Part shown: one piece after another, positions 4,896-54,406 of the stretch | Position numbering within the stretch: the first letter of the stretch is position 1 | Layout of the letters: each line of letters opens with the position of its first letter | Origin: Agarophyton chilense | Lineage: Eukaryota > Rhodophyta > Florideophyceae > Gracilariales > Gracilariaceae | Reading direction: 5' to 3' | Assembly (NCBI GenBank): GCA_030374765.1 | Contig: JARGXX010000092.1 | Location: 744,001-808,000, forward strand | DNA length: 64,000 nt | Notes under the pieces: model-generated | The model's input: the letters and a program-made list of their open reading frames with translations, nothing else | Told to the model about the DNA's origin: nothing | Database searches by the model: none | Translations under genes and position numbers: made by a program

Positions 4896-6624
4896 CTACG
4901 GAAAGCCCGAGGAGGGACCCGCCCCACCGTTGGGATTCTGACCCTGATGGTACGACGAGGCGAAAGCCAACATCTGGCTCACATCCGTCATACCCGGGGG
5001 AATCGGAATGCCCGCGTTCACGAGGCCTTTTCGCACACTATCCGCTTGAGGAGTGGCAACCGGCGCCTGCGCAAGGGTGTTCACACCCCACCCGGGGGGA
5101 GCAGATGGACCGCCACCGGATGCATTCGCCGCCGCAGCCGAGGTCGTTCCCACTGGTTGGTAGGGTGCAGATGGCTCCACAGGGAGTACTCCACTAGGAG
5201 CTGGCATGTCGTTATCCAACGCTGGATCGTCCAGGTCTACTGGAGGCTCGTACTCGTAATCGTCGGTATAAATGAACCCCGTCAGGTGTCCCACCAGCAT
5301 CGGTCGAGGCGAGTCCATCAGCGCCCGTGCTTGCGCCGCGCTGATGCGAACCCCTTCAAAGGGATTGTAATAGACCCAGTTACCGGAGCCCGGATCGTAC
5401 CGGCCAGGAGACTTGTCTCGCGCGGATCCTTCCCCTGCGGGCTGATTTTCAACTGGAACTCGATCCCATTGGGTGTTGTCGATCACGTCCAAGATTGGAT
5501 ACAGGTCCTGCACGCTGCTGGCCGAACCCAACGCTGGGACAAGGTCCATCTGACGCATGATGGTCCGTAGCATCGCAGGAATATACCAGATACGGAAATG
5601 GTCATGAGCATCCCAGAGGAGGTGCGCCGCTACGCGGGCTGCCCACTCGGCTGCAACGAGGGCCCAGTATCCCGAGTTCGGGTCGTGCATCAAATGAGAC
5701 CCGATATAGTAGATGCATGGAGGCAGTTCAGCAAAGCACCCTCGGGGGACCTCGACCTTCCTCCACCAAGCTGGAAGGGGCACGAATCGCCCAACCTTCG
5801 CCGTGTTACGGATACGCTCCAGTTCCACGTGAGGATACGGGACAAGGAACCCGAAACGGGAGCGCGAGCGGCGCTCGAAGCGCACGCGTCGATCGAACCC
5901 ACACTGGGTAAACTGCCGTTGAAGGTACCTGAATTCAGCCCGAAAGATGGGACGACTCCATTGGAGCATATCTTCTCGGACAGGAAAACCCGGTCCGCGG
6001 AACTCGGCTTCGGGAAAGGCTGCCAGGTTATCTCCGTAGGAGACCTCACCGTACGTGCGGTAATAGGCGACATCGAACCCGTACTCCGGGGGAACCAGAT
6101 GGTCAAAGCGTGACCTCTCCAATCTCTGGTAGGCCAGAGCCGCCATCGCTGCGCGCGCCTTGTCCAGGGACTCCCCGCGACCGCGGTATAGATACTGAGG
6201 CTCTATGGCTACCCGCGACCCTCCAATCGGGAGAACGTACAACCTCGACAGGTAGGCCACCCGGCAATAAGCCGTCCTCCACGTAGGAGTCGATGAGCTC
6301 ATCGTCGCGAACGGCTGTCGGATGGAACCACGGAGCGCGGGAATATATCACCGGATCGGTAAGGGGACTCCACCTTCGAAAGGATTCGTTTGAGATCCAA
6401 CCTCTGGAGTTTGCTACCAAGGGCATCGCATGAGCGGAGTTCCACGCCACCGCGTTAATGTCCAAATCCTCCTGAGGATGTCGGTTGCTCGCCGAGGCGG
6501 AAGGTTCGGTACCTGACGGAGCCGCATCCAAACCGGAGAAATATCCACCCTGCTGGGGAGCTTCGTTGTCCGCCGGCGCGGAGGCCGACGGCCCCGAGAG
6601 TGGGTTGATGACGTATGGGTTCAT
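4896..6624 (-). mobile_element. Element A antisense frame (counterpart of B 51549-53276)
   Basis: The reverse strand between the chromodomain and the 3' LTR carries the same antisense protein as element B. About 36 amino-acid differences are seen over roughly 430 comparable residues. Central features are the PAWW motif, the ELPPCIYYIGS stretch and an Ala/Trp-rich helix, followed by a Pro/Ala/Gly-rich C-terminus. The copy looks broken in about one place. The function is unknown and no named family was recognised. Upstream on the reverse strand lies a TATATATA box near 6765-6772, matching B. Confidence 0.8.
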
Positions 6625-7751: not shown

Positions 7752-8553
7752 GTTTTCATCTGAGGGAGACGCAGCGGCCATAACGGAAACACGTTGTGCG
7801 TCATCAATGGAAGCATTGGACAGCAGCATGAGTGCTGTGAGGCATTCTGGCAAATTGGTTGTATTCGAGATCGAATTGAACTTTGCTACCTGTGCAGAGA
7901 AACGGGACTCGAAGTTCTTCATGTTTTCCGAGTTCCCACGACGGGTGTTCAGGAGCACGTTGAAGGTCTTGTAGGCTTCACTCACGACGGAGAAAGCGTC
8001 ACGCTTGTAGATTGCACCGACGATCAGAGAGACTGAATCTTCTCCAACGAGCTGGGCGTCAGTAATTCCGGAACACAGGTCCTTGGCACGTCCATACAGT
8101 TGGGACTGGAGACAAACAGCCTGCAACGCTGCAGGAATCTTGTTGTTGTTATTAACGGGGAGTGCGTTGTGGAACGTCTGCCACAAACTAACAGCATCGC
8201 GATATTCTCCCTGGTCTCCTTTGCCCTCAGTCCAAGGCGGAGATTTGGAATCCCAGGAAAACTTGGGCCTGGAAGGGAGGTCCTTGGGCGAGGGCGTAGC
8301 CTGGTGGCCCATAACTAAGGATAGCCAGTGTCAGATACAGGAAAGTCTGAGTGAAAGGTGCAGGGTGTATTCAGAGTACAAGCATTCGTCTGTCCGCCCT
8401 TGGGGGCTCGTCCGACGTTTACAATGCGGCGGTCTGATATTGTTAGTCAGAGAACTTGTTACACAAACAGTCGCCAAGAAATATACATTACAAATACAAA
8501 TACAAATACAGTGAACTTCACTAGTCCACGAGAGCAACATTCAAACATTCATA
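7752..8553 (-). mobile_element. Copia-2: 5' LTR and gag fragment
   Basis: This reverse-strand Ty1/copia fragment has a 238-bp 5' LTR (8316-8553), a primer site and the first part of gag. Gag is closely similar to that of the intact copia-1 (16062-21075): both share LPVNNNNKIP, SQLYGRAKDLCSGITD and NTRRG.SENMKNFES. Element A is inserted in the gag region, so the rest of copia-2 lies left of the window. Only one end is visible, so no target duplication can be checked. Confidence 0.9.
8316..8553 (-). repeat. 5' LTR of copia-2
   Basis: Read on the reverse strand it starts TATGAATG and ends CTATCCTTA, the same unusual non-TG...CA ends as copia-1. An (ATACAA)n-type run lies near 8491-8510. The primer site GTTATGGGCC follows at 8306-8315. 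Confidence 0.85.
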
Positions 8554-16316: not shown

Positions 16317-16428
16317 CCAACCCGCAACCCATACTCTTCCTTCTCGGCCCAAATTCTCATGAAATTCGAAGTCTCCGCCTTGGACTAACGGCAAAGGAGA
16401 CCAGGAGGAATATCGCGATGCTGTAAAA

Positions 16429-19400
16429 TTGTGGCAGACGTTCCACAAAGCACTTCCAGTTAACAACAATAACAAAATTCCTAACGAGCTACAGGCAATT
16501 TGCCTCAAGTCGCAGCTCTACGGACGCGCCAAAGACCTCTGCTCCGGAATCACTGATGAGCAGCTTGTTGGTGAAGGTGCTGTTGACCTGCTGGTCGGTC
16601 AAATTTACAAACGAGATGCACTCTCTGTTGTCAGCGAAGCCTATAAGGCATTTAACCAACTGTTGAACACCCGTCGTGGCGCATCCGAGAACATGAAGAA
16701 CTTTGAGTCCTGCTTAAGCGCGCAAGTTGCCAAGTTTAACTCCATATCAACAACGACAAAGCTACCTGACTGTATCACTGCACTAATGCTGATTTCAAAC
16801 TCTTCCATCGATGATGTCCAACGTGTATCTGTCATGGCTGCTTCGGCTCCGTCCGCGGTCAATCTGAGCGCCGAGTCGACAAACGACCAATTCCTCAGTG
16901 CAGTGGCCTACAATTCTGTAGCATCTGTTATCAAGCAGTGCGACAAGTCTCGCCCATACACCTCCGAAAATAACGAAAGCACACTGAGTGCAAGCTCTGG
17001 CGGCCTTTCCCACCAGGGAAGCAAGAACTGTAGAAATGGAAACCGCGACAGGTCTGGAACATCACCCACAATGAAGTATCCGTGCAACACATGCGGAAAA
17101 TATGGTCACTGGAAACAAAACCATCGCGCGGACGGTTCGCTGGCACCCGGTGTGAAGTCTTTCGACCATCCGTTAAACTCAACCAATTCAACGAGCAGCA
17201 ATGAAAATTCATCGTCGTCTGTATCTGGCTCCGGACCAGCATCGGCTGAAAGTGACAAAACCGGAACCCTTTCCTTCAACAACGCAAGCCTTGATCGTTC
17301 ACTGCAAGACTCAACTCTTCTCGGCCCGCTCGTCGATAGCGGTGCACCATACTCAGCAATCGGTCTATTTGAACTAGATGTTCTAGCAGATCACCATGGC
17401 CTGTCACACAACCCGACACTCAATGCAATCCCGAAGTCACTTGGGGGATTAACGTGCTGGCAGTATGGTGTCGGAACGCACGCAAGCCCCGCCCGCAAAA
17501 TTCTAGGGTCAATTGTGCTGAATGCCATAACCGACAACAGTAACACAGTTTGTATAACTCACCTCGTACTCGACGGTTCATCGCAATGGGTGATCGGTCG
17601 CAATGTAACCAGTCGAGCGAACATCGAACATATCGGTCGTAACGCACTTGTGTTCCCCTTTCATGGAGAAGAAGATCTTATCTCTCTTGTCGAGCGTCGG
17701 TTTCTATCGTTTATAGAGCTATCCAGGTTCCGTCCGTTGACCCAATCAAAGAACGGCTTATCGGTCAACTCCGGCTCTACACTGTCATGTCTCTCGGCAG
17801 TGTCTGTCAACCACTCTTCATGGCCTCGTGCCAAACACGTGCTTGACAAAGTTCACCAACACGTTTGCGGACATGCTGCGTTCTCAGACTACAAGGTGTT
17901 TCTGGAGCGCAATGGCCTATGGAACGACGTCGTAGCCAAGTATATTTCAGATGTCGTGAGCACCTGCAATGCATGCCACTCCACCTCGCTACCGAAACCA
18001 TCCAGAAAAGTATCCATTAGCTCTCTATTGAAAGAGTTCAACGAAATACTGTGTGTAGACCACTTGTTCCTTGAAGGACTCTGCGTCTTTCATTGCATGG
18101 ACCTCGTCTCACGGTTCTCCGCCGCACGTGTTGTAAGGACCACCTCTCTCCAAGAGGCAGTCATCGGCTTCGAATCATGCTGGAATTCGCAGTTTTGGTA
18201 CCCAGACTCATTTCTTGCTGACAAAGCGTTTACCTCCGGTGACTTCCAGTCGTATGCCGACTCTCTCGGAATTCCGATTAAGCTTGTTCCCAAGCAACGT
18301 CATCACAAAAACCCCATTGAGTCAAAGCACAGCATCATACGATCGGTGTTCTTGCGCTTGAAAGAAAGTGCCGGAGATGATTACATCCCGGAGGTTGCTG
18401 CCTATGAAGCAGTCACTATCTCAAATGACTTGTATGGAAACGATGTCATGTCCGCATTCGAACTGGCAAAGGGCTTTACCAAACCGATCAACACAAAGCC
18501 AGCTGACACCGCTGTTCCCCAGGACGTCATCGACGCTCGTGACCAACTGCATGCCCGCCGCAAGTTGGCACTGATCCTTAGATCGAAATCGACCGACGAA
18601 GTACCGATAGCCACTGGTGACACGGTAGAAATCTTTCAAAAGAAAGATACTGAGAAGCGTGGCAGATGGTCTGAACCGAAGACAGTACTCGCAGTCGATC
18701 GCCATGCCCGCTCTATTTCCGTACCTGGCAGCAATGGCCGAGTCAGTACTGCCGCGATTGAAGATGCTCGCCCCGCCATCTCCCCGACATCATTCGCTCA
18801 AGTTGTGCAAGATGCAATTGACACTCTCGATGAGTGCATGCCCGTATTATCTGACACTGCTCATGATGAAACGCTTTCGACAAACGCCGATGATGACCGA
18901 AAGGACGAGTCGCACGTCACACCCGAAGACCCTCAGGACTTTTCCGATGACCGCACTCACAGCCCAGCTGTTGGTGACCGAGTTGATGTCTTATGGGATG
19001 ATGATGGTGTGATATACCCTGGTGCGGTACACTCGCGAGCCGAAAGCGGCAAAGTGACAATACACTACGACAATGGGGACATTGAGAACGATGTAGACCT
19101 GAACAGTGTACAGTGGACACCATCTGACGCTACCGAAGCCCCGCTTGCTGCTGCCAGCAGCAATCTGAAAGCTAGGCTACAGGTCACTAGCACTGAAGAC
19201 ACGGTACTCTCATCGATGCTAGAGCACTTTAATAATAAGCCTTTTATGCGGCATCAAGCTCAAGGATTTGATCAATACCCGCTCGTCAATGCGTATGCCC
19301 GGGAAGAAGAGACCTTTCTGAAAACCGCTCGTATTGTTTGCATTCGAGATATTCCTAAAGGAGCTAACGTCATCAACAGTCATACGCTCTATAAGATCAA

Positions 19401-42646: not shown

Positions 42647-42651
42647 AATGG
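42647..42651. repeat. Left target-site duplication of element B (AATGG)
   Basis: AATGG precedes the 5' LTR and recurs at 54402-54406. Confidence 0.92.
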
Positions 42652-43567
42652 GGTAGAGCAACGCCCAGTTAGGGGATACTTGAAGATGCAACTCATAGAA
42701 TGAGGATTGAACCCTCCGAGGGTTATGACTATGATCCCCTCTAAGGTGTGCTGAGGTGGCACTGTTTTCTGGTTAGAGTTCGCCTATGAAGTGAAAATTC
42801 GGATGGCCCATGGTTGGATTGGCCCCGTGATACACGTGGCTTAATTTTGGCACCGATTTTCGGATATTTGTTAGAACGTTGGACTTTTGGGCCCTGACAG
42901 TGGGATCTCCACGTGTATGGCCCTGAGCAGGTGTGCACTACTGTAGAGTTTAGTTAGTGGGCCCTACTTAGGGAGATGAGATCTGACAGTCCGAAGCTCA
43001 GAGTAAATGGTAGCCAAGGTTGGTCTTCGATACCTTTAGAGGTTCTTCGTCGCCATCGTTTCGGCCTTACAACCCGGAACGGGCTCTGGTTAGCAACGCC
43101 TGCGTAGGGACACGACTCCACTTGGAGAGTGCCCACGTTTGGGTTCCGTGCAACCACCCCCTTGGGACCGCTCAGACGACCTGCGTGCACGATACCCCGT
43201 GGGGGTTCTGCTTACTTGTTGCGTGCTTTTTGTGTTTCCTTTCGAGTACAGGTTTTCGCCCCTGTATTGGGTTTCTTGTGTTGTTTCGCCCCTTTTCTGG
43301 TTCTTGGGTCCGGTGCCTGTTAGTGCCCGACCCTCGCCCCGTTTTTCCTCTTCGCCGGATTTTCCCCCATTCTTTGGGATACTCATACCCATTCCCGATC
43401 CAACGGTTTCTACCCCTCACCTCCGTCGGTACTGCCGGAATCCCCCGTGGGAGTTACACCCCACACTACGGGTGGAACGGAGGGCTCTGTCTCTGAGTCT
43501 GCCTCCCGCAGGGAGCAAGGCTTTGAACACCTTGAGAGCACTTCCCGTCGCCGGGTTTTGCTCCACA
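42652..43567 (+). repeat. 5' LTR of element B
   Basis: 916 bp beginning GGTAGAGCAACG (3' copy TGTAGAGCAACG) and ending GCTCCACA. Confidence 0.95.
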
Positions 43568-43569
43568 AG

Positions 43570-43590
43570 TGGTTTCCCGACTTAGAATCC
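43570..43590 (+). other. Primer-binding site of element B
   Basis: TGGTTTCCCGACTTAGAATC begins two bases after the LTR. The leading TGG fits the CCA end of a tRNA, and the site is conserved in element F. Which tRNA it is could not be named. Confidence 0.65.
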
Positions 43591-43794
43591 GTTCTCGGAC
43601 TTTTGGGTTGGTCATCCACGTGTTGGAATATCACTTGGAAGAGGAAGCACCGTCGTGAAGATTTGTTGTAGTCGTCCCCTTTGGAAAGGGTGGAATTGGT
43701 TTTTATTTTTGTTTTGTGTTACGTCATCCGTTCTCCGGGAATCTCGTGATCGAATTTCATCGTTACCCCGAATCGTCATTGTCGTGTCTGCAGC

Positions 43795-45633
43795 ATGTCG
43801 CCGCCTACCCGTGGTTCCAGGACTGGATCGAACCGTCAAGCGGATTCAGTGCCCCCGGCCCCGCCTAGGCCGAGGAGCTCAATTCCCGAAGGTCGGAACG
43901 ATTCCGGTATCGATCCGGACACTCGGAGAGCACCCTCAGTGGTTTCAGGTCCTCGAGAGGTCGTGGCTGTGGGCCCAGCTCCAGTGGTGGAGACCCCCTC
44001 AGCAGCACCCCGAAGTTGGGCCGACCCTAAATTACAGCGCCTGGAGACTCGAATCGATATCGCCAACGTGGCTCACGTCGAGCTCCTTCAGGAGGTTACT
44101 ACCCTCCGCCTCAAGGTGGAGGACGCCCCGGTGCGCGGAGTCGCCGATGACCTTCGTACCCTGAGGAGGGATGTGAACTCCCTTTTGGAAAGCTTTGGTA
44201 CCCCTGGGGCCTTTATCCAGGAGTACCGGAGCCTCGTGGAGGAACACCGCGTGCAAGCGGAACGCTTTCGAGCTCGGCTGGACACCCTCGAGGCCATTAT
44301 CCGTATGGACGGACACACAGAAGCCTCAAACAATAAACCCCACGTTTCGGAAGACGAAGAACACCGCTCCGCTAAACGGGACCGCCGCAAGTCCAAGAAG
44401 AGGGTTCACCTCCAAGAGGATTTATCGGATTCCGATCCCAATCGCTCGCCATCGTGTTCGTTCTCCGAATCTTCGGATAGTGAAGATGAACGCCGGTCAT
44501 CCCGGGCGACTCGGTCGAAGGCTACTTACACCTCTCAAGGGGCAATCCGTACCCGGAAGAAGGGTAGGAAACACCTTGGATTAAGGGAGCTGAAGCCGAC
44601 GAATCCTCTCTATCGGAAGCTGCTATCGTACCGCTATTACCGGTTGGATAACCCTTCGGGAGATCGAACATCCCGCGGAACGGGTAAGGTCAAGGACTAC
44701 ATCAAGAGGCTGAGAATTACCCTACAGAAGAGGGAGTTCACAGGAACAGACCCAATTCTGGTGCTCGATTTCCTTGCGAGGTTCGTCCAGGAGGCTGACA
44801 TCTTCGGTATGAGTGAAGCGCAAGCGTATCTTGCATTAACCTATTTCTTAAAGGGGATGGCTGAAGACCAGTTCAACTCCGTCCGTGGATCATCCCGAGC
44901 CTCGGAAGGGGGAGTCACGTGCTGGCCCGAAGCGGTGCAGTACCTCTTGAGGTCATACGCTACTGGAAATGCGATTCAGGAAGCAACCCTTGCATTAAGG
45001 GATACGCGGCAGAAGCCGATGGAAACCGAAACGGTGTATTCAACTTGCTTGAATAAAGCGTTTCACCGATGCGGGAATGTATTCCCCGCCTACGAGAGAT
45101 GCTCCATGTTTGTGGATGGTTTGGACCCCTCGATAAGGGCATTGGTTGCCCGACATCGGGAAGAGAAGCGCAAGCTGACCTACTTGGAACTGGTTCAGTA
45201 CGCCCAGGCTGAGGGGGATACTCTCCGTGCCCGGCAGAAACGAAAGAGTTGGCGGACACGTGCACTCCTCGCCGATGGAGGTAACTCGTCTTTGTCACTC
45301 GCAGGAGGCCCTGCCCCTGTGGGGGTCAATGATAACATTCACTTCATGGGAAGTAACCCCGAATCTATTGGTACGTCTGAGTTGCCGTCGACATCCGCTC
45401 CGACTACGGATGAAGACCCTGCGCTCTATACCCACGGACGGAGGGTGCCAGCCGCATCGCTACCTTTTGCGAATACCGCTGCTCGGTTCTCTCGGCCCGG
45501 ATGGAGGGATACAGCACCACCTCGCGTGGATTCACGTCCACAACCGAACCCGGCAGAGCTGATTTGCTATTTGTGTTACCTCCGTGGTCACAAAGCACCA
45601 GACTGCACATTTCCCCTGCGGGAGGGTTCATGA
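43795..45633 (+). CDS. gag: Element B Gag
   Basis: The 612-residue protein starts at an ATG. A Pro/Arg/Ser-rich N-terminus is followed by a coiled-coil-like stretch (about 85-165, with LQRLETRIDIANVAHVELLQ). Then a basic/acidic linker with KRDRRKSKKRVH. Then the capsid-like helical region (about 300-480, with DYIKRLRITLQKREFTGTDP and LALTYFLKGMAEDQF). It ends in a CCHC zinc knuckle CYLCYLRGHKAPDC (about 591-604). Gag assembles the particle and binds the RNA. The protease/pol frame follows after about 190 bp. A related, decayed Gag lies in element F. Confidence 0.93.
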   Translation: MSPPTRGSRTGSNRQADSVPPAPPRPRSSIPEGRNDSGIDPDTRRAPSVVSGPREVVAVGPAPVVETPSAAPRSWADPKLQRLETRIDIANVAHVELLQEVTTLRLKVEDAPVRGVADDLRTLRRDVNSLLESFGTPGAFIQEYRSLVEEHRVQAERFRARLDTLEAIIRMDGHTEASNNKPHVSEDEEHRSAKRDRRKSKKRVHLQEDLSDSDPNRSPSCSFSESSDSEDERRSSRATRSKATYTSQGAIRTRKKGRKHLGLRELKPTNPLYRKLLSYRYYRLDNPSGDRTSRGTGKVKDYIKRLRITLQKREFTGTDPILVLDFLARFVQEADIFGMSEAQAYLALTYFLKGMAEDQFNSVRGSSRASEGGVTCWPEAVQYLLRSYATGNAIQEATLALRDTRQKPMETETVYSTCLNKAFHRCGNVFPAYERCSMFVDGLDPSIRALVARHREEKRKLTYLELVQYAQAEGDTLRARQKRKSWRTRALLADGGNSSLSLAGGPAPVGVNDNIHFMGSNPESIGTSELPSTSAPTTDEDPALYTHGRRVPAASLPFANTAARFSRPGWRDTAPPRVDSRPQPNPAELICYLCYLRGHKAPDCTFPLREGS

Positions 45634-45827
45634 ATTATCGCTCAGTACGAGGCTCTGACCCCTGAGGAGAAAGCTCGAGTCCCGAGTAGGTCCTATGAGG
45701 AACAAAGGATACTCCGAGCTCACCTTGATGACAGGGATACAGAACTTGTACCCCCGAACGGGGAACAACCGGTCCCCTTCGAGGCAGCTGCACCGAATTC
45801 GGTGGGGTCCGCTTCGAAAAACTAAAC

Positions 45828-48800
45828 TTGGGAGTCTCCCCTGCGGGAGGGGCGTCTTCTAAGCCGGAGTTGAAGACGCCTGAGGCGCTCCAGCTTCGCT
45901 CCCCAGCTGGGACTATCCTTTCAAAGAGAACGGCTGACACCGACGTTAACTCGGGATACTTTAGTGTCCTCCGTCGCTCGTGGATACGGTCCCGTAATCT
46001 CCGTATTCCGGATCGATTTATGGTAATGGCCAAGCGGAATTGTAAAGTATTCGCCGACTTCGGCCTGTCCAACCAGTTTATGGTTCGTCAAATATCTGTC
46101 CTGGATACAGGAGCCGCTCCTAACTTAATTCATGTTGAATTGTTACCCCCGCTGCTCCGGGTTCAAGTTCGTACCGGTCTACGTTTGGATATCGCCGATG
46201 CGAACAACAACCCGCTACGGACACTGGGTACAATTTCCCTCATGGTGAGGTTAGGCTCCTATCTCGTTCAACTAGAGTTTATTGTATGCAAGTCACTTGC
46301 AGCACCAGTCATACTGGGTTGTGACTTTTGCGACCGCTTCGTGGAAGCCATCCGTCCTCGGAATAGAACTGTGGAACTCGAAGACGGGTCTACGATCCCA
46401 ATCGTTCCTAAACCCGTACAGGGAGCAGCGCGAACACGCGTTCCTCTCCCTGTCGCGCAGGAAACTGTGAAGAAGGACCCGGTGTCTACACGGGTAAAGG
46501 TTGCGAAGTCAGTGGCTATCCCGGCAGAAACCCAGGTTTGGGTCACAGTTGTTACCAAGCAAATTGGTGTGCATGTGGTACAACCGAACCTGTCTATGTA
46601 TACGCGGCGTCAACTCGCCCTTGCGAATGGGGTTGTCTCCGTGGAACCGGATAAACCTTTCAAGGTTTTGGTAGCCAACTTTGGAAAGACAACGCAGCAT
46701 TTGGTCAAACACCAGATCCTGGGTTCTGTTCTTCCACACCCGCATGTGGTCGTACCTACAAAGATCTCTATCGCAGAGGTCCTTGGTGTGGTGGACCCTA
46801 AGGAGGGAGAGGACACTGCCGAAATCGCGGAAGACGGTGAGCATACGACTGCAGCTCCACACGCTGAACACTTTAAACCTCAGAAGGTTACGGCCCCTAC
46901 CACAGGAGCAGACCAGACGGATCCTGTTCAGAAATTGGAGAAATGGGATCTCAACCATGTACCCGCATCTCATCGGGAGAAGCTGAGGCACATGCTTCGT
47001 GATTTTACCCCCATGTGGGATGGTTCCCTTGGAACTATTGGGATTACAGAACACCTCATCGACTTGTTACCGAACACTCGGCCTATTGCCCAACACCCTT
47101 ACAGGGCTGGACCGAAAGCTCGGGAAGAGGAGAAATCTCAGGTGGAGAAGATGCTTAAAGCGGGCGTAATTGAACCTGCCCAGTCCGCTTGGGGCTCACC
47201 AGGGGTGTTACTTCCGAATCCGGATGGATCGTGGCGTTTCTGCATCGATTACAGACGCCTGAACGAGGTAACCATTAAGGATGTGTACCCGATCCCTCGG
47301 ATGGACAAATACATCGACTCCCTTGGGAGCGCTACTGTTTTCTCTACCCTCGACGCCAATTCCGGCTACTGGCAAGTCCCTATTAGGGAGGAAGATCGAG
47401 ACGAAACGGCTTTCGTGTGTCACCAAGGACTTTTCCGATTCCGGAGGATGCCTTTTGGGTTGAAAAATGCCCCCGCAACGTTTCAACGGGCGATAGACAT
47501 TCTGTTGGCTCCCTTCAAGTGGAGGACGTGTCTAGTGTATTTAGACGACATTATCGTCTTCATCAACAACCTGGATGACCACCTCGAACACGTCAGGGAC
47601 GTAATGAAGATACTCCGCGACGCGGGAATCACCTTGAAACTCAAGAAGTGCGAGTTTTTCACCGATTCGGTTAAGTACCTGGGTCATATCATCCGTACCG
47701 GACAGCTTTCAATCGATGAAGTACGAGTGAAATCCTTGAAGGAAGCAAAACACCCGAAAACTCAATCGAAGTTGCGATCCTTCTTAGGTCTGTGTAACGT
47801 GTATCGCCGATTCGTCCCGAACTTTGCGGATATTGCCACCCCCCTCAACAGGCTCCTGACGAAGGGACAACCAGTTGAACTGGAACCTTTTGGCGACGCG
47901 GAAGCGTCTGCCTTCACGGCACTGGTGAATGCCGTAACATCACCGCCAATCTTGGCTCTACCCAATCCTGGGCTCCCCTACGAAGTGGACACCGATGCTA
48001 GTGCAAACCAAGTAGGGTGTGCACTGTTCCAATCCTCTGAGGATGGTGAACGTCACCCTATTGGGTACTGGTCACGTTCCCTGAATGTCCATGAAAGGAA
48101 CTACTCGGTCTCCGAGAAAGAATGTTTAGCCGTTGTGTGGGCCTTAGCTACACTTCGCCCCTATCTGATGGGTACTCGTTTCAAAGTCCATACGGACCAC
48201 GCATGCTTGCGTTGGCTCCTGGAGATCTCCGAACCCTCGGGCCGCCTTATGCGCTGGCGTCTCCGACTGTCGGAATTCGACTTTGAGATCCTGTACAAGA
48301 AAGGGAAGCTGAACACTCCGGCTGATGCACTATCCCGCTTGGGAACCACAGCGGAAACGGAACCCTACGAAAACGATGACATCCCATGCTTTATGGTATC
48401 GGACCTCGAGGGAGGAGCTCAACCGCTGACGGATGATCTTTGTGACGATATACTCGTCAACGAGAGTCTGGATTCGCCGACCGGCTCTTTTATACCTATC
48501 TCTCCAGAGGAGATGATACGCGAGCAACAGCTCGACCCATTCTGTACACGGATTCGGGCTCGCCTCAACGGAGGATTTCAGTTACCTTTCGAGGACGACG
48601 ATCAGGGTTACCTAATCAGGACCGTTGGACCTCGCCCGAGGATAGTAGTGCCGCACACCCTACAACAGAGGGTATTACACCTCACTCACTATGTGAAGGT
48701 TGGCGCCCACCCCGGGGGAAGAAAACTGTACCTCACGTTGAGAAGGGACTTTTACTGGCCGGCAATGGCATTCGATTGTTACGCCGTCAGACGGGCATGC

Positions 48801-48971
48801 GCCAATTGCGCCAAGAATGACGTCAAACTTCGGAAGCACTCTAAGAAGTTGACGCTGTTCCCGGCACGGGCTCCACTCGAATTCGTGGCCATAGACATCC
48901 TAGGGGAGTTTATCAGGACGCCCCGAGGTCATCGGTATCTGCTTGTCATTCTGACAGATTCTCTAAGCTAA
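45828..48971 (+). CDS. pol: Element B pol: protease, RT, RNase H, integrase N-terminus
   Basis: 1047 codons; the head has no ATG, so it is expected to be made from the gag-pol RNA rather than started alone. Protease: SVLDTGAAPNLIH (about residue 92) and VILGCDFCDRF (about 163). RT: FCIDYRRLN, FSTLDANSGYWQVPI, MPFGLKNAPATFQ and the catalytic LVYLDDIIVF (about 571). RNase H: EVDTDASANQVGCALF (about 717), YSVSEKECLAVVWAL and HTDHACLRWLL. Integrase zinc module: HLTHYVKVGAHPGG and CANCAKN (about 965-1012), then the first core Asp in FVAIDILGEF. Nearly identical to element A. Confidence 0.94.
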   Translation: MGVSPAGGASSKPELKTPEALQLRSPAGTILSKRTADTDVNSGYFSVLRRSWIRSRNLRIPDRFMVMAKRNCKVFADFGLSNQFMVRQISVLDTGAAPNLIHVELLPPLLRVQVRTGLRLDIADANNNPLRTLGTISLMVRLGSYLVQLEFIVCKSLAAPVILGCDFCDRFVEAIRPRNRTVELEDGSTIPIVPKPVQGAARTRVPLPVAQETVKKDPVSTRVKVAKSVAIPAETQVWVTVVTKQIGVHVVQPNLSMYTRRQLALANGVVSVEPDKPFKVLVANFGKTTQHLVKHQILGSVLPHPHVVVPTKISIAEVLGVVDPKEGEDTAEIAEDGEHTTAAPHAEHFKPQKVTAPTTGADQTDPVQKLEKWDLNHVPASHREKLRHMLRDFTPMWDGSLGTIGITEHLIDLLPNTRPIAQHPYRAGPKAREEEKSQVEKMLKAGVIEPAQSAWGSPGVLLPNPDGSWRFCIDYRRLNEVTIKDVYPIPRMDKYIDSLGSATVFSTLDANSGYWQVPIREEDRDETAFVCHQGLFRFRRMPFGLKNAPATFQRAIDILLAPFKWRTCLVYLDDIIVFINNLDDHLEHVRDVMKILRDAGITLKLKKCEFFTDSVKYLGHIIRTGQLSIDEVRVKSLKEAKHPKTQSKLRSFLGLCNVYRRFVPNFADIATPLNRLLTKGQPVELEPFGDAEASAFTALVNAVTSPPILALPNPGLPYEVDTDASANQVGCALFQSSEDGERHPIGYWSRSLNVHERNYSVSEKECLAVVWALATLRPYLMGTRFKVHTDHACLRWLLEISEPSGRLMRWRLRLSEFDFEILYKKGKLNTPADALSRLGTTAETEPYENDDIPCFMVSDLEGGAQPLTDDLCDDILVNESLDSPTGSFIPISPEEMIREQQLDPFCTRIRARLNGGFQLPFEDDDQGYLIRTVGPRPRIVVPHTLQQRVLHLTHYVKVGAHPGGRKLYLTLRRDFYWPAMAFDCYAVRRACANCAKNDVKLRKHSKKLTLFPARAPLEFVAIDILGEFIRTPRGHRYLLVILTDSLS

Positions 48972-48979
48972 CGATAACT

Positions 48980-50626
48980 GTGCCGCTGAAGCGGATCACC
49001 ACCGCTACCGTCGCGCAAGCATTTGTGACCCATTGGGTGTTCGTATATGGACCGCCGGTGCAGTTGTTATCCGACAACGGAGGGCAATTCGCATCAAAGT
49101 TCTTTCAGGATGTATGTCGAATCCTTGATGTAAGGAATTTATTTGTTACTACGTATCACCCTCAGGGGAATGGCCAGGTGGAGAGGTTTAACCGCACGAT
49201 ACTCAACGCTTTGAGATCGTATGTTGCGGATCACCCCAAAAATTGGGACTTGTACACAGACGCTATCACGTATGCATACAACACCCAGGTACATCGGGTT
49301 ACATCGTTATCCCCATTCGAACTGGTACTGTCGAGGACACCGCCGCCGGTCGCCATCGAGGCTCAACCGACGCTGTCGACGTACCCGTCACCGGGATTGT
49401 ACCGAAAAGCCTGGAAGGAGTGGCTTACGAGGATGGTGCCGATAGCCCGGAAAGCAATGGACAAAGCTCAACGCGCCTACAAGAAGGACTTTGACAATCG
49501 GGTTCGCAAACCTCTACCTCAGGTGGAGCCCGACGACTTCGTCTTCCTTCGAAAGGAATACTACAATCCTGAAAAGGAACGTAGGCACAAGCTTTCGCCA
49601 ATTGTGGACGGACCCTATCGGGTGGTTTCTGTAGACCCGGACACGGTGGTATTGGATATCGCTAACCGCCACGAACGGATCTCCAGGGACCGCATCACAC
49701 GAGCGCCCAACCCAAATGTGGAAGTGGTGTCGGCACCAACGCCCTCCACAGGGGATGATTCAACGGAAGTTAACCCGTCCGGCGGAGATTCGAACACCCG
49801 CCCCGTTATACTTCCGCACCCGGAACGTGGTTTAACCGACCTACCGAAAACTTCGGATACTCCCGAACCTGGGCCCGCTCCCTCAAGGGCCCAGTCAACG
49901 AACTCTTACAGAGTTACTCCCCCACCGGAGGTAATCAAGCCTCCTGGCTCTCCGCCAAAGGAGGGGGAGGAGGACTTAGTTCCTTCGCAGGACGATGTTT
50001 CGGCGTCAGCCAGTTGCCCTAACAGGGAATCTAGTTCTCACAGTGAGACGGCGAGCCCGACCGAGCCGGCGACAGAGAAGTCACAACCCCAGCGTATGGG
50101 TAGCGACATCACCGCCGACCCAGCCGAGCTCGACGTCAGAAAAGATGACGAAAACCCGCCTAGGGAGAGTCGTGTGGAGAACTGCGCACCCGGAACGCCT
50201 ACAGAGCCGATGGTCACCCGCCGCCGCGGACGAGACACTGAGGTGTCGCACACTCAAACCCCGCTTTCTCGGGAAAGAGCTGTGTCAGCGGACCCGCACG
50301 GGGAAGATCTCGACGACGAGGTTGACCGAATTTGGCTCTCCGTTATGGAATGGGAACAGGAACTCCTATGGAGATACTGGAACCCTCAGGAATGGGAAAA
50401 AATGAGTGAGACCCGTCGGGGACAGCTCAGGAGAGTGCTAGCGCGTGTCGAAAGCGCCACCTCACATCCCCTTGCGGAGTGGCAACCGGCGCCCGCGCAT
50501 TTATGTGGCACACGTCGAATGGAACCGAGCCAATCAAAAGGCTCTGACGACCAACCGTCGCGCAAACCGCCTCCGTCGCACGGAGCGTTGCACGGGAGCA
50601 ACCTTCGTCCCCGTAGCTCGGGTTGA
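48980..50626 (+). CDS. pol: Element B integrase core and C-terminal tail
   Basis: This frame continues integrase: LLSDNGGQFASKFF (second catalytic Asp), GNGQVERFNRTI (catalytic Glu), then KLSPIVDGPYRVV (GPY-type module) and ISRDRITRAPNP. The rest, from about residue 245, is Pro/Ser/Glu-rich and probably disordered. It ends with basic SQSKGSDDQPSRKPPPS-like sequence, about 200 bp before the chromodomain frame. It is slightly longer than the equivalent visible in A. Confidence 0.9.
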   Translation: MPLKRITTATVAQAFVTHWVFVYGPPVQLLSDNGGQFASKFFQDVCRILDVRNLFVTTYHPQGNGQVERFNRTILNALRSYVADHPKNWDLYTDAITYAYNTQVHRVTSLSPFELVLSRTPPPVAIEAQPTLSTYPSPGLYRKAWKEWLTRMVPIARKAMDKAQRAYKKDFDNRVRKPLPQVEPDDFVFLRKEYYNPEKERRHKLSPIVDGPYRVVSVDPDTVVLDIANRHERISRDRITRAPNPNVEVVSAPTPSTGDDSTEVNPSGGDSNTRPVILPHPERGLTDLPKTSDTPEPGPAPSRAQSTNSYRVTPPPEVIKPPGSPPKEGEEDLVPSQDDVSASASCPNRESSSHSETASPTEPATEKSQPQRMGSDITADPAELDVRKDDENPPRESRVENCAPGTPTEPMVTRRRGRDTEVSHTQTPLSRERAVSADPHGEDLDDEVDRIWLSVMEWEQELLWRYWNPQEWEKMSETRRGQLRRVLARVESATSHPLAEWQPAPAHLCGTRRMEPSQSKGSDDQPSRKPPPSHGALHGSNLRPRSSG

Positions 50627-50830
50627 CGTTGAAGTCTTACCCCCCTGAGATTGGAGACGCTACCGCGTCGCGGTTTCTCAACCGTCACAATATCTAAGAA
50701 CACCTTTGTTATCGGGAAAATCTCAGCTTTAAGAAGAACCCAAAACTGGGTCGTTTTGACTCCGTAGACGGAAGTTACAACGTAGCTCACAGGCCACTCG
50801 ACGCCGTTTGGACGAAGTGCTGAGACCCGC

Positions 50831-51148
50831 TTGCAACACGGAAAAGCACCCACCGGGGTGTGTCTAGACCCTACGTTGACACCCTCAAGGGAACTAGAGC
50901 GTTCCGAGATGGAAGAGAAGCCCGAACAGGGAAAAGTGTACCCGCAGGAATTCGTTATCGATCGCATCGTGCGTCACATCTACACCCCCGAGGGAGAAGT
51001 CCGCTACCAATTCCGATGGTACGGATTCTCGCCTGATGAGGATACAGTGGAACCCATTGAGCACCTTCCGAGGTCTAAGGTTTTATCCTATCACCGACGC
51101 GCTCGGGTAACCTTGCCTCCAAGTCTGGATCGTGCCCAAGTCGGGTAA
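50831..51148 (+). CDS. Element B chromodomain
   Basis: The 105-residue frame ends in a chromodomain: YPQEFVIDRIVRHIYTPEGE, VRYQFRWYGFSPDEDTVEP and LPRSKVLSYHRRAR. Its first ATG at about 50909 gives MEEKPEQGKVYPQEF, close to the domain start. In this group the domain follows integrase and is expected to recognise histone marks at target sites. Confidence 0.88.
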   Translation: MQHGKAPTGVCLDPTLTPSRELERSEMEEKPEQGKVYPQEFVIDRIVRHIYTPEGEVRYQFRWYGFSPDEDTVEPIEHLPRSKVLSYHRRARVTLPPSLDRAQVG

Positions 51149-51309
51149 GCCACCACGGGAACTGGTGTGGATGGGACCTCGAAGTGAGGAAGATGTTGGA
51201 CCTCTGAAGAGGAATTGAGGAGAGTATCCCGAAGAACACGTATTGAGAGGGAATGTCTACTGGCCCTCGGCCTAGCGCCGTTAACCGGGGAACACAGCAC
51301 CGGTTATCG

Positions 51310-51485
51310 GGACAGTTTATGATGAAAAAAGGAAAAGAAGACCCACGAACTGGAGAAGAAGATTAAGAAGAAGATTGGACCCTAGGAAGGGAAGAAGATG
51401 AAGACGAAGATGAAGAAGATCCTAAGAAGGAAGAAGAAAAGAAGTAGAAGTTAAGATCCTAGGAAGGAAGAAGAAAAGAAGTTAT
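51310..51485 (+). repeat. Purine-rich GAA/AAG spacer in element B
   Basis: Nearly all-purine + strand built of GAAGAAGAT, AAGAAGATT and GAAGATGAAGACGAAGATG runs. It separates two convergent reading frames. It differs from A mainly by gain or loss of short runs. Confidence 0.7.
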
Positions 51486-51548
51486 GCAAATATCAGAAGT
51501 TTACTATTGTCGCCAAGCTATGGACTCCACAATCGCCCGAAGGCGGAA

Positions 51549-53276
51549 CTACGGAAAGCCCGAGGAGGGACCCGCCCCATCGTTTTGATTCTGACCCTGA
51601 TGGTACGCCGAGGCGAAAGCCAACATCTCGATCACATCCGTCATACCCGGGGGAATCGGAATGCCCGCGTTCACGAGGCCTTGTCGCACACTATCCGCTT
51701 GCGGAGTGGCAACCGGCGCCTGCGCAAGGGTGTTCACACCCCACCCGGGGGGAACAGATGGACCGCCACCGGATGCATTCGCCGCCGCAGCTGAGGTCGT
51801 TCCCACTGGTTGGAAGGGTGCAGATGGCTCCACAGGGAGTACTCCACTAGGAGCTGGCATGTCGTTATCCAACGCTGGATCGTCCAGGTCTACTGGAGTC
51901 TCGTACTCGTAATCGTCGGTATAAATGAACCCCGTCGGGTGTCCCACCTGCATCGGTCGTGGCGAGTCAATCAGCGCCCGTGCTTGCGCCGCGCTAATGC
52001 GAACCCCTTCGAAGGGATTGTAATAGACCCAGTTACCGGAGCCCGGATCATACCGGCCAGGGGACTTGTCTCGAACGGATACTTCCCCTGCGGGCTGATT
52101 TTCCACTGGAACTCGATCCCATTGGGTGTTGTCGATCACGTCCAAGATTGGATACAGGTCCTGCACGCTGCTGGCCGAATTCAACGCTGGGACAAGGTCA
52201 ATCTGACGCATGACGGTCCGTAGCATCGGAGGAATATACCAGATACGGAAATGGTCATGAGCATCCCAGAGGAGGTGTGCCGCTACGCGGGCTGCCCACT
52301 CGGCTGCAACGAGGGCCCAGAATCCCGAGTTCGGGTCGTGCATCAAACGAGACCCGATATAGTAGATGCATGGGGGCAGTTCAGCAAAGCACCCTCGGGG
52401 GACCTCAACCTTACTCCACCAAGCTGGAAGTGGTACGAATCGCCCAACCTTCGCCGTGTTACGGATACGCTCCAGTTCCACGTGAGGATACGGGACAAGG
52501 AACTCGAAACGGGAGCGCGAGCGGCGCTCGAAGCGCACGCGTCGATCCAACCCATACTGGGTAAACTGCCGTTGAAGGTACCTGAATTCAGCCCGAAGGA
52601 TGGGACGACTCCATTGAAGCATATCTTCTCGGAGAGGAAAACCCGGTCCGCGGAACTTGGCTTCGGGAAAGGCTGCCAGGTTATCCCCGTAGGAGACCTC
52701 ACCGAACGTGCGGTAATAGGCGACATCGAACCCGTACTCCGGGGAAACCAGATGGTCAAAGCGTGACCTCTCCAATCGCTGGTAGGCCAGAGCCGCCATC
52801 GCTGCGCGCGCCTTGTCCAGGGACTCCCCGCGACCGCGGTATAGATACTGAGGCTCTATGGCTACCCGCGCCCTCCAATCGGGAGAACGTACAACCTCGA
52901 CAGGTAGGCCACCCGGCAATAAGCCGTCCTCCACGTAGGAGTCGATGAGCTCATCGTCGCGAACCGCTGTCGGATGGAACCACGGAGCGCGGGAATATAT
53001 CACCGGATCGGTAAGGGGACTCCACCTTCGAAAGGGTTCGTTTGAGATCCAACCTCTGGAGTTTGCTACCAAGGGCATCGCATGAGCGGAGTTCCACGCC
53101 ACCGCGTTAATGTCCAAATCCTCCTGAGGATGTCGGTTGCTCGCCGAGGCGGAATGTTCGGTACCTGACGGAGCCGCATCAAAACCGGAGAAATATCCAC
53201 CCTGCTGGGGAGCTTCGTTGTCCGCCGGCGCGGAGGCCGATGGCCCCGAGAGTGGGTTTAGAACGTATGGGTTCAT
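51549..53276 (-). CDS. Element B antisense accessory protein, unknown function
   Basis: A 575-residue frame on the strand opposite gag-pol, between the chromodomain and the 3' LTR. The frame is open 56 codons further up to 53444 but without an ATG; the ATG at 53276 fits a TATATATA box at 53417-53424. Residues 1-110 are Pro/Ser/Ala-rich. The centre (about 150-400) is rich in Arg and aromatics, with DDELIDSYVEDGLLPGGLPV, PAWWSKVEVP, ELPPCIYYIGSR, the hydrophobic helix FWALVAAEWAARVAAHLLWD and FRIWYIPPML. The C-terminus (about 460-575) is Pro/Ala/Gly/Gln-rich. No known family was recognised. A related protein sits in the same place in elements C and E, and a near copy in A. Antisense frames at this position are known in some plant LTR elements, but I see no sequence link. 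The role is open: structural, regulatory or envelope-like. Confidence 0.8.
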   Translation of the reverse strand: MNPYVLNPLSGPSASAPADNEAPQQGGYFSGFDAAPSGTEHSASASNRHPQEDLDINAVAWNSAHAMPLVANSRGWISNEPFRRWSPLTDPVIYSRAPWFHPTAVRDDELIDSYVEDGLLPGGLPVEVVRSPDWRARVAIEPQYLYRGRGESLDKARAAMAALAYQRLERSRFDHLVSPEYGFDVAYYRTFGEVSYGDNLAAFPEAKFRGPGFPLREDMLQWSRPILRAEFRYLQRQFTQYGLDRRVRFERRSRSRFEFLVPYPHVELERIRNTAKVGRFVPLPAWWSKVEVPRGCFAELPPCIYYIGSRLMHDPNSGFWALVAAEWAARVAAHLLWDAHDHFRIWYIPPMLRTVMRQIDLVPALNSASSVQDLYPILDVIDNTQWDRVPVENQPAGEVSVRDKSPGRYDPGSGNWVYYNPFEGVRISAAQARALIDSPRPMQVGHPTGFIYTDDYEYETPVDLDDPALDNDMPAPSGVLPVEPSAPFQPVGTTSAAAANASGGGPSVPPGWGVNTLAQAPVATPQADSVRQGLVNAGIPIPPGMTDVIEMLAFASAYHQGQNQNDGAGPSSGFP

Positions 53277-53416
53277 TCCTTTAAGAGGGCTGGTTGAGAC
53301 TGCTGTTGCGAGAAGTTGCTTATCGCCGAAAGTCGGAGGAGTAGAAGAAAGCTGTACCGATGTGCCGGTTTTGTGGAGATCCTCAGAAGTGGTAAAGGAC
53401 CCCACTGGGAGAGAAG

Positions 53417-53424
53417 TATATATA
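53417..53424 (-). promoter_or_regulatory. TATA box candidate for the antisense frame
   Basis: TATATATA on the reverse strand, about 140 bp before the ATG at 53276. It is conserved in element A (near 6765-6772). It would place a transcription start near 53390. Confidence 0.55.
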
Positions 53425-53472
53425 GTGACCGGAAAGCGAGACACCCGCGGCTCGGAATGTTCTTCCTCGTCT

Positions 53473-53486
53473 TAAGGAGGGGGAGA
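53473..53486 (+). other. Polypurine tract of element B
   Basis: AAGGAGGGGGAGA lies immediately before the 3' LTR, identical to element A. Confidence 0.8.
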
Positions 53487-54401
53487 TGTAGAGCAACGCC
53501 CAGTTAGGGGATACTTGAAGATGCAACTCATAGAATGAGGATTGAACCCTCCGAGGGTTATGACTATGATCCCCTCTAAGGTGTGCTTAGGTGGCACTGT
53601 TTTCTGGTTAGAGTTCGCCTATGAAGTGAAAATTCGGATGGCCCATGGTTGGGTTGGCCCCGTGATACACGTGGCTTAGTTTTGGCACCGATTTTCGGAT
53701 ATTTGTTAGAACGTTGGACTTTTGGGCCCTGACAGTGGGATCTCCACGTGTATGGCCCTGAGCAGGTGTGCACTACTGTAGAGTTTAGTTAGTGGGCCCT
53801 ACTTAGGGAGATGAGATCTGACAGTCCGAAGCTCAGAGTAAATGGTAGCCATGGTTGGTCTTCGATACCTTTAGAGGTTCTTCGTCGCCATCGTTTCGGC
53901 CTTACAACCCGGAACGGGCTCTGGTTAGCAACGCCTGCGTAAGGACACGACTCCACTTGGAGAGTGCCCACGTTTGGGTTCCGTGCAACCACCCCTTTGG
54001 GACCGCTCAGACGACCTGCGTGCACGATACCCCGTGGGGGTTCTGCTTACTTGTTGCGTGCTTTTTGTGTTTCCTTTCGAGGACAGGTTTTCGCCCCTGT
54101 ATTGGGTTTTTTTGTTGTTTCGCCCCTTTTCTGGTTCTCGGGTCCGGTGCCTGTTAGTGCCCGACCCTCGCCCCGTTTTTCCTCTTCGCCGGATTTTCCC
54201 CCATTCTTTGGGATACTCATACCCATTCCCGATCCAACGGTTTCTACCCCTCACCTCCGTCGGTACTGCCGGAATCCCCCGTGGGAGTTACACCCCACAC
54301 TACGGGTGGAACGGAGGGCTCTGTCTCTGAGTCTGCCTCCCGCAGGGAGCAAGGCTTTGAACAGCTTGAGAGCACTTCCCGTCGCCGGGTTTTGCTCCAC
54401 A
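53487..54401 (+). repeat. 3' LTR of element B
   Basis: 915 bp, TGTAGAGCAA...GCTCCACA, about 1.4% different from the 5' LTR. Frames inside it are fortuitous. Confidence 0.95.
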
Positions 54402-54406
54402 AATGG
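54402..54406. repeat. Right target-site duplication of element B (AATGG)
   Basis: Matches 42647-42651. Confidence 0.92.

Follow-up and report, generated by a model that had tools for sequence, protein, structure and literature searches.

Does the strand opposite gag-pol of a red-algal gypsy retrotransposon encode a protein of its own and, if so, what would such a protein do? The question is raised by element B, a chromodomain-bearing gypsy LTR element of Agarophyton chilense that lies, with gag-pol on the plus strand, at 42652-54401 of the window, by which we mean the whole stretch of 64,000 nucleotides that was analysed (contig JARGXX010000092.1, positions 744,001 to 808,000). The original prediction held that a 575-codon frame starting with ATG runs opposite to gag-pol between the chromodomain and the 3′ LTR, and that element A, located at the window's left edge, carries a near copy. 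Both statements were borne out, the former by the frame itself and by the positions of the Pfam and LTR matches.

Layout of element B and its antisense frame

Element B is flanked on both sides by a 5-bp target-site duplication, AATGG (42647-42651 on the 5′ side and 54402-54406 on the 3′ side, read by eye from the sequence), and is bounded by two plus-strand LTRs that blastn aligned with 98.7% identity across 920 columns and whose exact ends were set by eye (42652-43567 and 53487-54401 for the 5′ and 3′ LTR, respectively). The internal region contains a gag ORF of 612 aa (43795-45633, plus strand; Retrotrans_gag E 0.0035, below the cut-off), followed on the same strand by a first part of pol (45828-48971) with RT, RNase H and integrase zinc-binding domains and a protease domain at an E of 0.14 only. 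This part ends at 48971 with an in-frame stop; the integrase core is found in a second part (48980-50626, plus strand; rve E 0.00044, below the cut-off). The chromodomain, whose presence behind the integrase is a chromovirus feature, occupies a separate frame of its own (50831-51148, plus strand) and exceeds the Pfam cut-off for PF00385 (27.9 bits compared with 25.1). The remainder of the element consists of a purine-rich spacer, evident from the sequence (51149-51548, plus strand), the antisense ORF (aORF; 51549-53276, minus strand), the leader between the antisense ATG and the 3′ LTR (53277-53486, minus strand) and a polypurine tract adjoining the 3′ LTR (53474-53486, plus strand, assigned by eye).

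A stop cuts the pol frames of elements A and B at an identical point (window positions 2328 and 48971, both frames ending in LVILTDSLS), compared with open RT frames of up to 1657 aa in other copies; the common stop reflects either descent from one broken copy or a read-through site. The window also contains an inverted repeat (7762-8279 and 16336-16853), the 518-base arms of which are 75% complementary and lie 8056 bases apart.

The aORF of element B comprises 575 codons from ATG and 640 codons from stop to stop, compared with 180 codons for the longest open frame on the sense strand of the interval from chromodomain to 3′ LTR. In 1000 first-order Markov simulations of this interval, the longest frame on either strand had a mean length of 167 codons and a maximum of 357. 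The GC content at the third codon positions of the aORF (0.62) makes stops rarer and in this respect favours a chance or compositional open frame, an explanation to which we nevertheless assign a negligible probability: a chance origin of the 640-codon frame is ruled out by the simulations, and the explanation is refuted because homologues exist, at 30-51% identity. The near copy in element A (4896-6624, minus strand) shows 56 differences in 1728 bases from that of element B as well as one inserted base, which splits its frame.

The original prediction had further pointed to a TATA box upstream of the antisense frame. The motif TATATATA is indeed present within the leader at 53417-53424, in what may be a promoter, but its value as promoter evidence is weak. 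TATAWA is kept in only 33 of 48 copies of the window family, and the 20-base segment around it, far from being kept better than its surroundings, varies more than any other part of the leader (about 210-215 bases); most of this variation falls in one column, which is altered in 27% of the copies. No TATA was seen by eye in the short leaders of other families. The start codon, too, is best described as putative, because most copies carry an in-frame ATG further upstream: it is found at -129 in 42 of the 48 copies and is one base off in a further copy, and it is missing from element B and four others. The starts of two related proteins, P0002 and L080 (both described below), align near the ATG at 53276.

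Copies, families and homologues of the antisense ORF

The genome searched (G000) comprises 79.8 Mb in 135 contigs, seven of which carry a total of 13 matches to phycobilisome linkers, in keeping with a red alga. A protein search of it recovered at least 76 close copies of the aORF at 93-100% protein identity, 44 of which have no internal stop among the matches listed; this list leans to good copies because it is ranked by protein score. A second sample of 20 loci was therefore considered that had been chosen by DNA outside the ORF, blind to the state of the ORF (the best 24 of 40 rows, minus element B and three loci already sampled). The aORF is present at full length in 17 of these 20 loci, cut by contig ends in two (L052 and L053) and rearranged in one (L063), and the last three were left out of the counts that follow. 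Four of the 17 full-length aORFs are fully open and 13 contain a stop or frameshift. A third sample consisted of 14 RT loci chosen by eye as being without a partner in the ORF lists, and these yielded nine near full-length ORFs, two deletions of the core, one fragment and two loci with none; a chromodomain was found at nine of the 14, the stretch examined sometimes ending short of it. From the DNA-picked and RT-picked samples, we regard the aORF as a property of the window family, carried by most of its copies (as is also said of the aORF-3R elements introduced below), most of them decaying and most of the DNA-picked ones with stops.

The two core deletions, at L070 and L074, are identical, remove about residues 45-347 and end in a short near-repeat. 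The two loci are 95% identical to each other, and their shortened ORFs are likewise flanked by the chromodomain on one side and the LTR on the other. They are possibly a mobile deletion derivative, and if the deletion was spread by copying, the protein would act in trans; alternatively, a single locus may have been duplicated. At two other loci (L068 and L069), the 3′ LTR follows soon after the RT and the antisense ORF is absent, and in three further copies of the genome searched (G000 C25:532625, C33:456871 and C68:3693962) the distance between RT and ORF is only about 2.8 kb, compared with 4.3 kb elsewhere, which suggests that these are internal deletion subfamilies.

From one of the 14 RT-picked loci we reached L079, the decayed remains of a gypsy element that belongs to a different family and whose pol is 45% identical to that of the window over 607 residues. 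It has a chromodomain on the pol strand and, behind it on the opposite strand, a remnant of the aORF at 29-31% identity; this position is seen from the chromodomain side only, the 3′ LTR there not having been located. A 72-aa piece of the remnant has at least 150 genomic matches, with identities of 39-100%; of the 150 listed, 14 lie in open frames of 500-662 codons. We compared the positions of all 150 with those of 150 listed RT matches, obtained with a piece of the L079 pol as query. Forty-nine of the 150 listed ORF matches have a listed RT match within 10 kb, the remaining 101 having no RT nearby among the matches listed, and in 48 of the resulting 50 ORF-RT pairs the two matches lie on opposite strands (in two, on the same strand). 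For 44 listed ORF matches, the opposite strand carries an RT match 3.5-6.5 kb downstream, an arrangement that arose 0.56 times on average, and never more than 5 times, in 2000 trials with random placement.

Full-length ORFs were found in two further families, represented by L080 (558 aa) and L084 (560 aa), so that there are at least two further aORF families at 30-35% protein identity (30 and 32% to the window protein for L080 and L084, respectively). The L084 family numbers at least 78 copies, and 16 of the 78 listed are free of stops. In the third family, the position of the frame is seen from its distance and orientation to RT.

RT matches were also seen in open 1847-aa frames (G000 C12:261791, C16:138026 and C75:1686397) with no aORF match within 10 kb among the matches listed; this family may be without the gene or may have a more distant version of it. 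On contig C39 of the same genome (227,691 bases), phycobilisome linker matches repeat at an offset of 185,684 bases, as would result if a circular plastid genome had been assembled beyond its start.

Comparison of the protein with other genomes, which had been proposed together with the original prediction, produced two relatives and no others at E ≤ 1 in 5.8 billion proteins, with scoring confined to the 7996 candidates that had the most short words in common. The first, P0002 (an ENA record), is 48% identical with 97% covered, and the second, P0003, is the hypothetical protein BWQ96_10156 of Gracilariopsis chorda (41% identity, 83% covered), for which the best match in the A. chilense genome among the matches listed is 44%. 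The best 120 of 187 matches of a pol search included none on contigs attributable to P0002 or P0003. Neither the window protein (P0001) nor its alignment found a plant or fungal protein at E ≤ 1 among the 7996 candidates scored.

Selection on the antisense frame

Between families, pS is 0.71-0.85 and pN is 0.26-0.48. A dS could be computed for 3 of the 19 pairs, whose dN/dS is 0.15-0.18; these ratios are rough because dS (2.2-2.7) is near saturation. Taken at face value, the codon comparison points to strong constraint on the protein between families, with synonymous sites near saturation.

Within families, the signal is weaker. For the other two families, 8 pairs give a dN/dS of 0.45-0.88, as is expected if most copies are dead. 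The first Ka/Ks sample of the window family was biased, having been ranked by protein score. When codon variants shared between copies of this family are considered, the antisense frame gives a w of 0.60 (p 0.0014, 48 copies), and four other frames give a w of 1.0 or more. In the DNA-picked sample, w for the antisense frame is 0.79 with all variants, 0.60 with shared variants (p 0.041) and 0.67 with variants present in at least three copies (p 0.27). Of the changes that separate element B from the other copies, 22 are nonsynonymous and 12 synonymous, the expected ratio being 2.5. One sense frame is also low, with a w of 0.66 in the 48 copies (p 0.011) and of 0.47 in the DNA-picked sample, compared with 0.60 for the antisense frame. 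We take these low values to mirror the antisense signal, because the two frames have their third codon positions in common and because the sense frame is not open; the ratios of the window family alone do not separate the two.

Within-family Ka/Ks alone is thus not decisive, the copies decaying almost neutrally, and the case for a protein gene rests on the comparison between families because the within-family signal is weak. A Ka/Ks near 1 combined with the lack of a preserved frame elsewhere had been named at the outset as speaking against a gene. Frames were found in other copies, in other families and in another genus, and the constraint between families appears strong; the ratios between families thus favour the gene, whereas those within families lie nearer to the unfavourable value.

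The predicted protein and its possible role

With 45 R against 5 K, the window protein is rich in arginine and poor in lysine. By crude hydropathy, the maximum 19-residue Kyte-Doolittle mean is 1.07-1.63 in five members of the family, none of which contains a strong transmembrane-like stretch; an envelope protein is disfavoured by this composition together with the lack of a strong hydrophobic stretch. The family has a conserved core with predicted helices and poorly conserved ends. Searches of the libraries returned nothing above their cut-offs: the best Pfam matches (DUF3905, E 0.032; E3_binding, E 0.23) and the best matches to PDB sequences (E 0.61 and 3.5) are far below the cut-off, no PHROGs family matches above the cut-off, and the 66 pattern matches in IMG/VR include no relative. 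Among 64 pattern matches in GTDB, a single 33-residue match within an 839-aa bacterial ORF was judged to be due to chance. Structure prediction of the full-length protein (3 sequences) was useless, with a mean pLDDT of 32. For the core (358 residues, 10 rows), the mean pLDDT was 51, with values above 70 mainly in the last third, and neither Foldseek nor VIA-align produced a match above noise with this model; because the model is too poor, the absence of a fold match is no evidence of a new fold.

Antisense ORFs between pol and the 3′ LTR (aORF-3R) have been described for Grande (gene23, maize), RIRE2 (rice), Retand (Silene), PvRetro13 (bean) and Boty (Botrytis), where they are reported to occur in most copies without clear similarity to database proteins (PMC7264820). 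Transcription is reported there for Grande and Retand, and the product of Grande gene23 is reported to be nuclear and the gene to have its own promoter (PMC7264820). In Retand, 97% of the clusters of recently active elements are reported to encode a TRP28 domain (PMC11963269). The same two sources mention antisense genes of HTLV (PMC7264820, PMC11963269), and an antisense promoter within the 3′ LTR is noted for deltaretroviruses (PMC7264820). The function of antisense genes behind pol is presented as unsolved, with cases in flowering plants and a fungus (PMC7264820, PMC11963269).

The red-algal frame resembles the aORF-3R elements in lying between pol and the 3′ LTR, in being antisense and in occurring in most copies, and it differs from them in its red-algal host and in having no plant or fungal protein relative at E ≤ 1 among the scored candidates. 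HBZ of HTLV-1 is an antisense protein gene near the 3′ end of the provirus and is regulatory; the likeness of the red-algal frame to it, as a putative antisense protein gene near the 3′ end, is one of position. The place and orientation of the Retand gene are also shared, but TRP28 (PF04195) has no match in eight members of the red-algal protein family at E ≤ 1, and the red-algal element carries a chromodomain. Retand belongs to a non-chromovirus lineage of flowering plants, and the PF00385 match of the red-algal element argues against an affiliation with it. The antisense orientation also distinguishes the red-algal frame from env-like aORFs, which are in sense. By its position and by the profile searches, the red-algal protein is assigned to the aORF-3R positional class and is not a TRP28 protein, which agrees with the original remark that a few plant LTR elements have antisense frames in this place, with no sequence relation recognised. 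In the open-access literature, we found no report of an antisense ORF in a red-algal retrotransposon.

Judged by these comparisons, the aORF appears to represent a real and old protein family that has gone unrecognised, in a position where antisense genes are already on record. The original proposal of an accessory gene of a gypsy lineage, possibly previously undescribed, is supported by the conserved protein and the lack of a library match. We consider it likely, with a probability of roughly 0.6, that the conserved frame antisense to gag-pol in at least three gypsy families is a genuine accessory gene, for which we predict transcription and a nuclear regulator as the product. Transcription of the aORF would run opposite to the genomic RNA and start from a promoter located either in the leader or in the 3′ LTR, and the message would be translated into a soluble, arginine-rich protein. 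By analogy with Grande gene23, this protein may be nuclear and may regulate the transcription or integration of the element itself, and it could be supplied in trans to deletion derivatives such as L070 and L074. The red-algal protein may work like those of the aORF-3R class, and on this analogy we hold, with moderate confidence, that it is an accessory regulator acting in the nucleus. The wider proposition stands at about even odds: that red-algal chromodomain gypsy elements have carried their own antisense regulator since before the families split, that it is an orphan that arose independently of TRP28 and HBZ, and that deletion derivatives use it in trans. If this is true, an antisense regulator would be a repeated solution among LTR elements. 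Because an apparently unrelated red-algal case is kept across families, with synonymous sites near saturation, the antisense place behind pol would seem to be selected rather than an accident of one lineage. With more than 200 listed copies (76 and 150), intact, decayed and deleted, in one small genome, the role of the gene is testable with RNA data.

Three other explanations of a conserved frame were weighed. A structural or movement-type protein, either capsid-associated or envelope-like and made from a separate antisense message, would fit the size of the product, which is near that of Gag (575 and 612 aa, respectively), and the helical core with its poorly conserved ends. It is unlikely, given that BLASTP of the aORF protein against gag and pol remained at chance level (best E 0.061) and that the hydropathy maxima of the five members indicate no strong hydrophobic stretch; the lack of a structural match also counts against it, although the model is too weak for this to exclude one. 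Rather less probable is that the antisense transcript itself is functional and damps the element by pairing with the genomic RNA, the frame being kept for other reasons. By position, any antisense transcript would extend over the 3′ portion of the genomic RNA, and damping through double strands with the genomic RNA has been proposed for aORF-3R elements (PMC7264820), but it is the protein that is conserved at near-saturated synonymous sites, which a role of the RNA only leaves unexplained.

The accessory-gene reading also has to be set against the capture, by one ancestor, of a host gene or of a gene from a nested mobile element that was inserted antisense and has since been a passenger. The annotation of BWQ96_10156 as a gene in Gracilariopsis chorda and the near-neutral ratios within families would fit such a history, which we rate as improbable, between the structural protein and the functional RNA. 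With P0002 and P0003 as queries, no closer host-like copy appeared among the matches listed, and the frame has persisted under constraint across families, one of which has a pol that is only 45% identical to that of the window.
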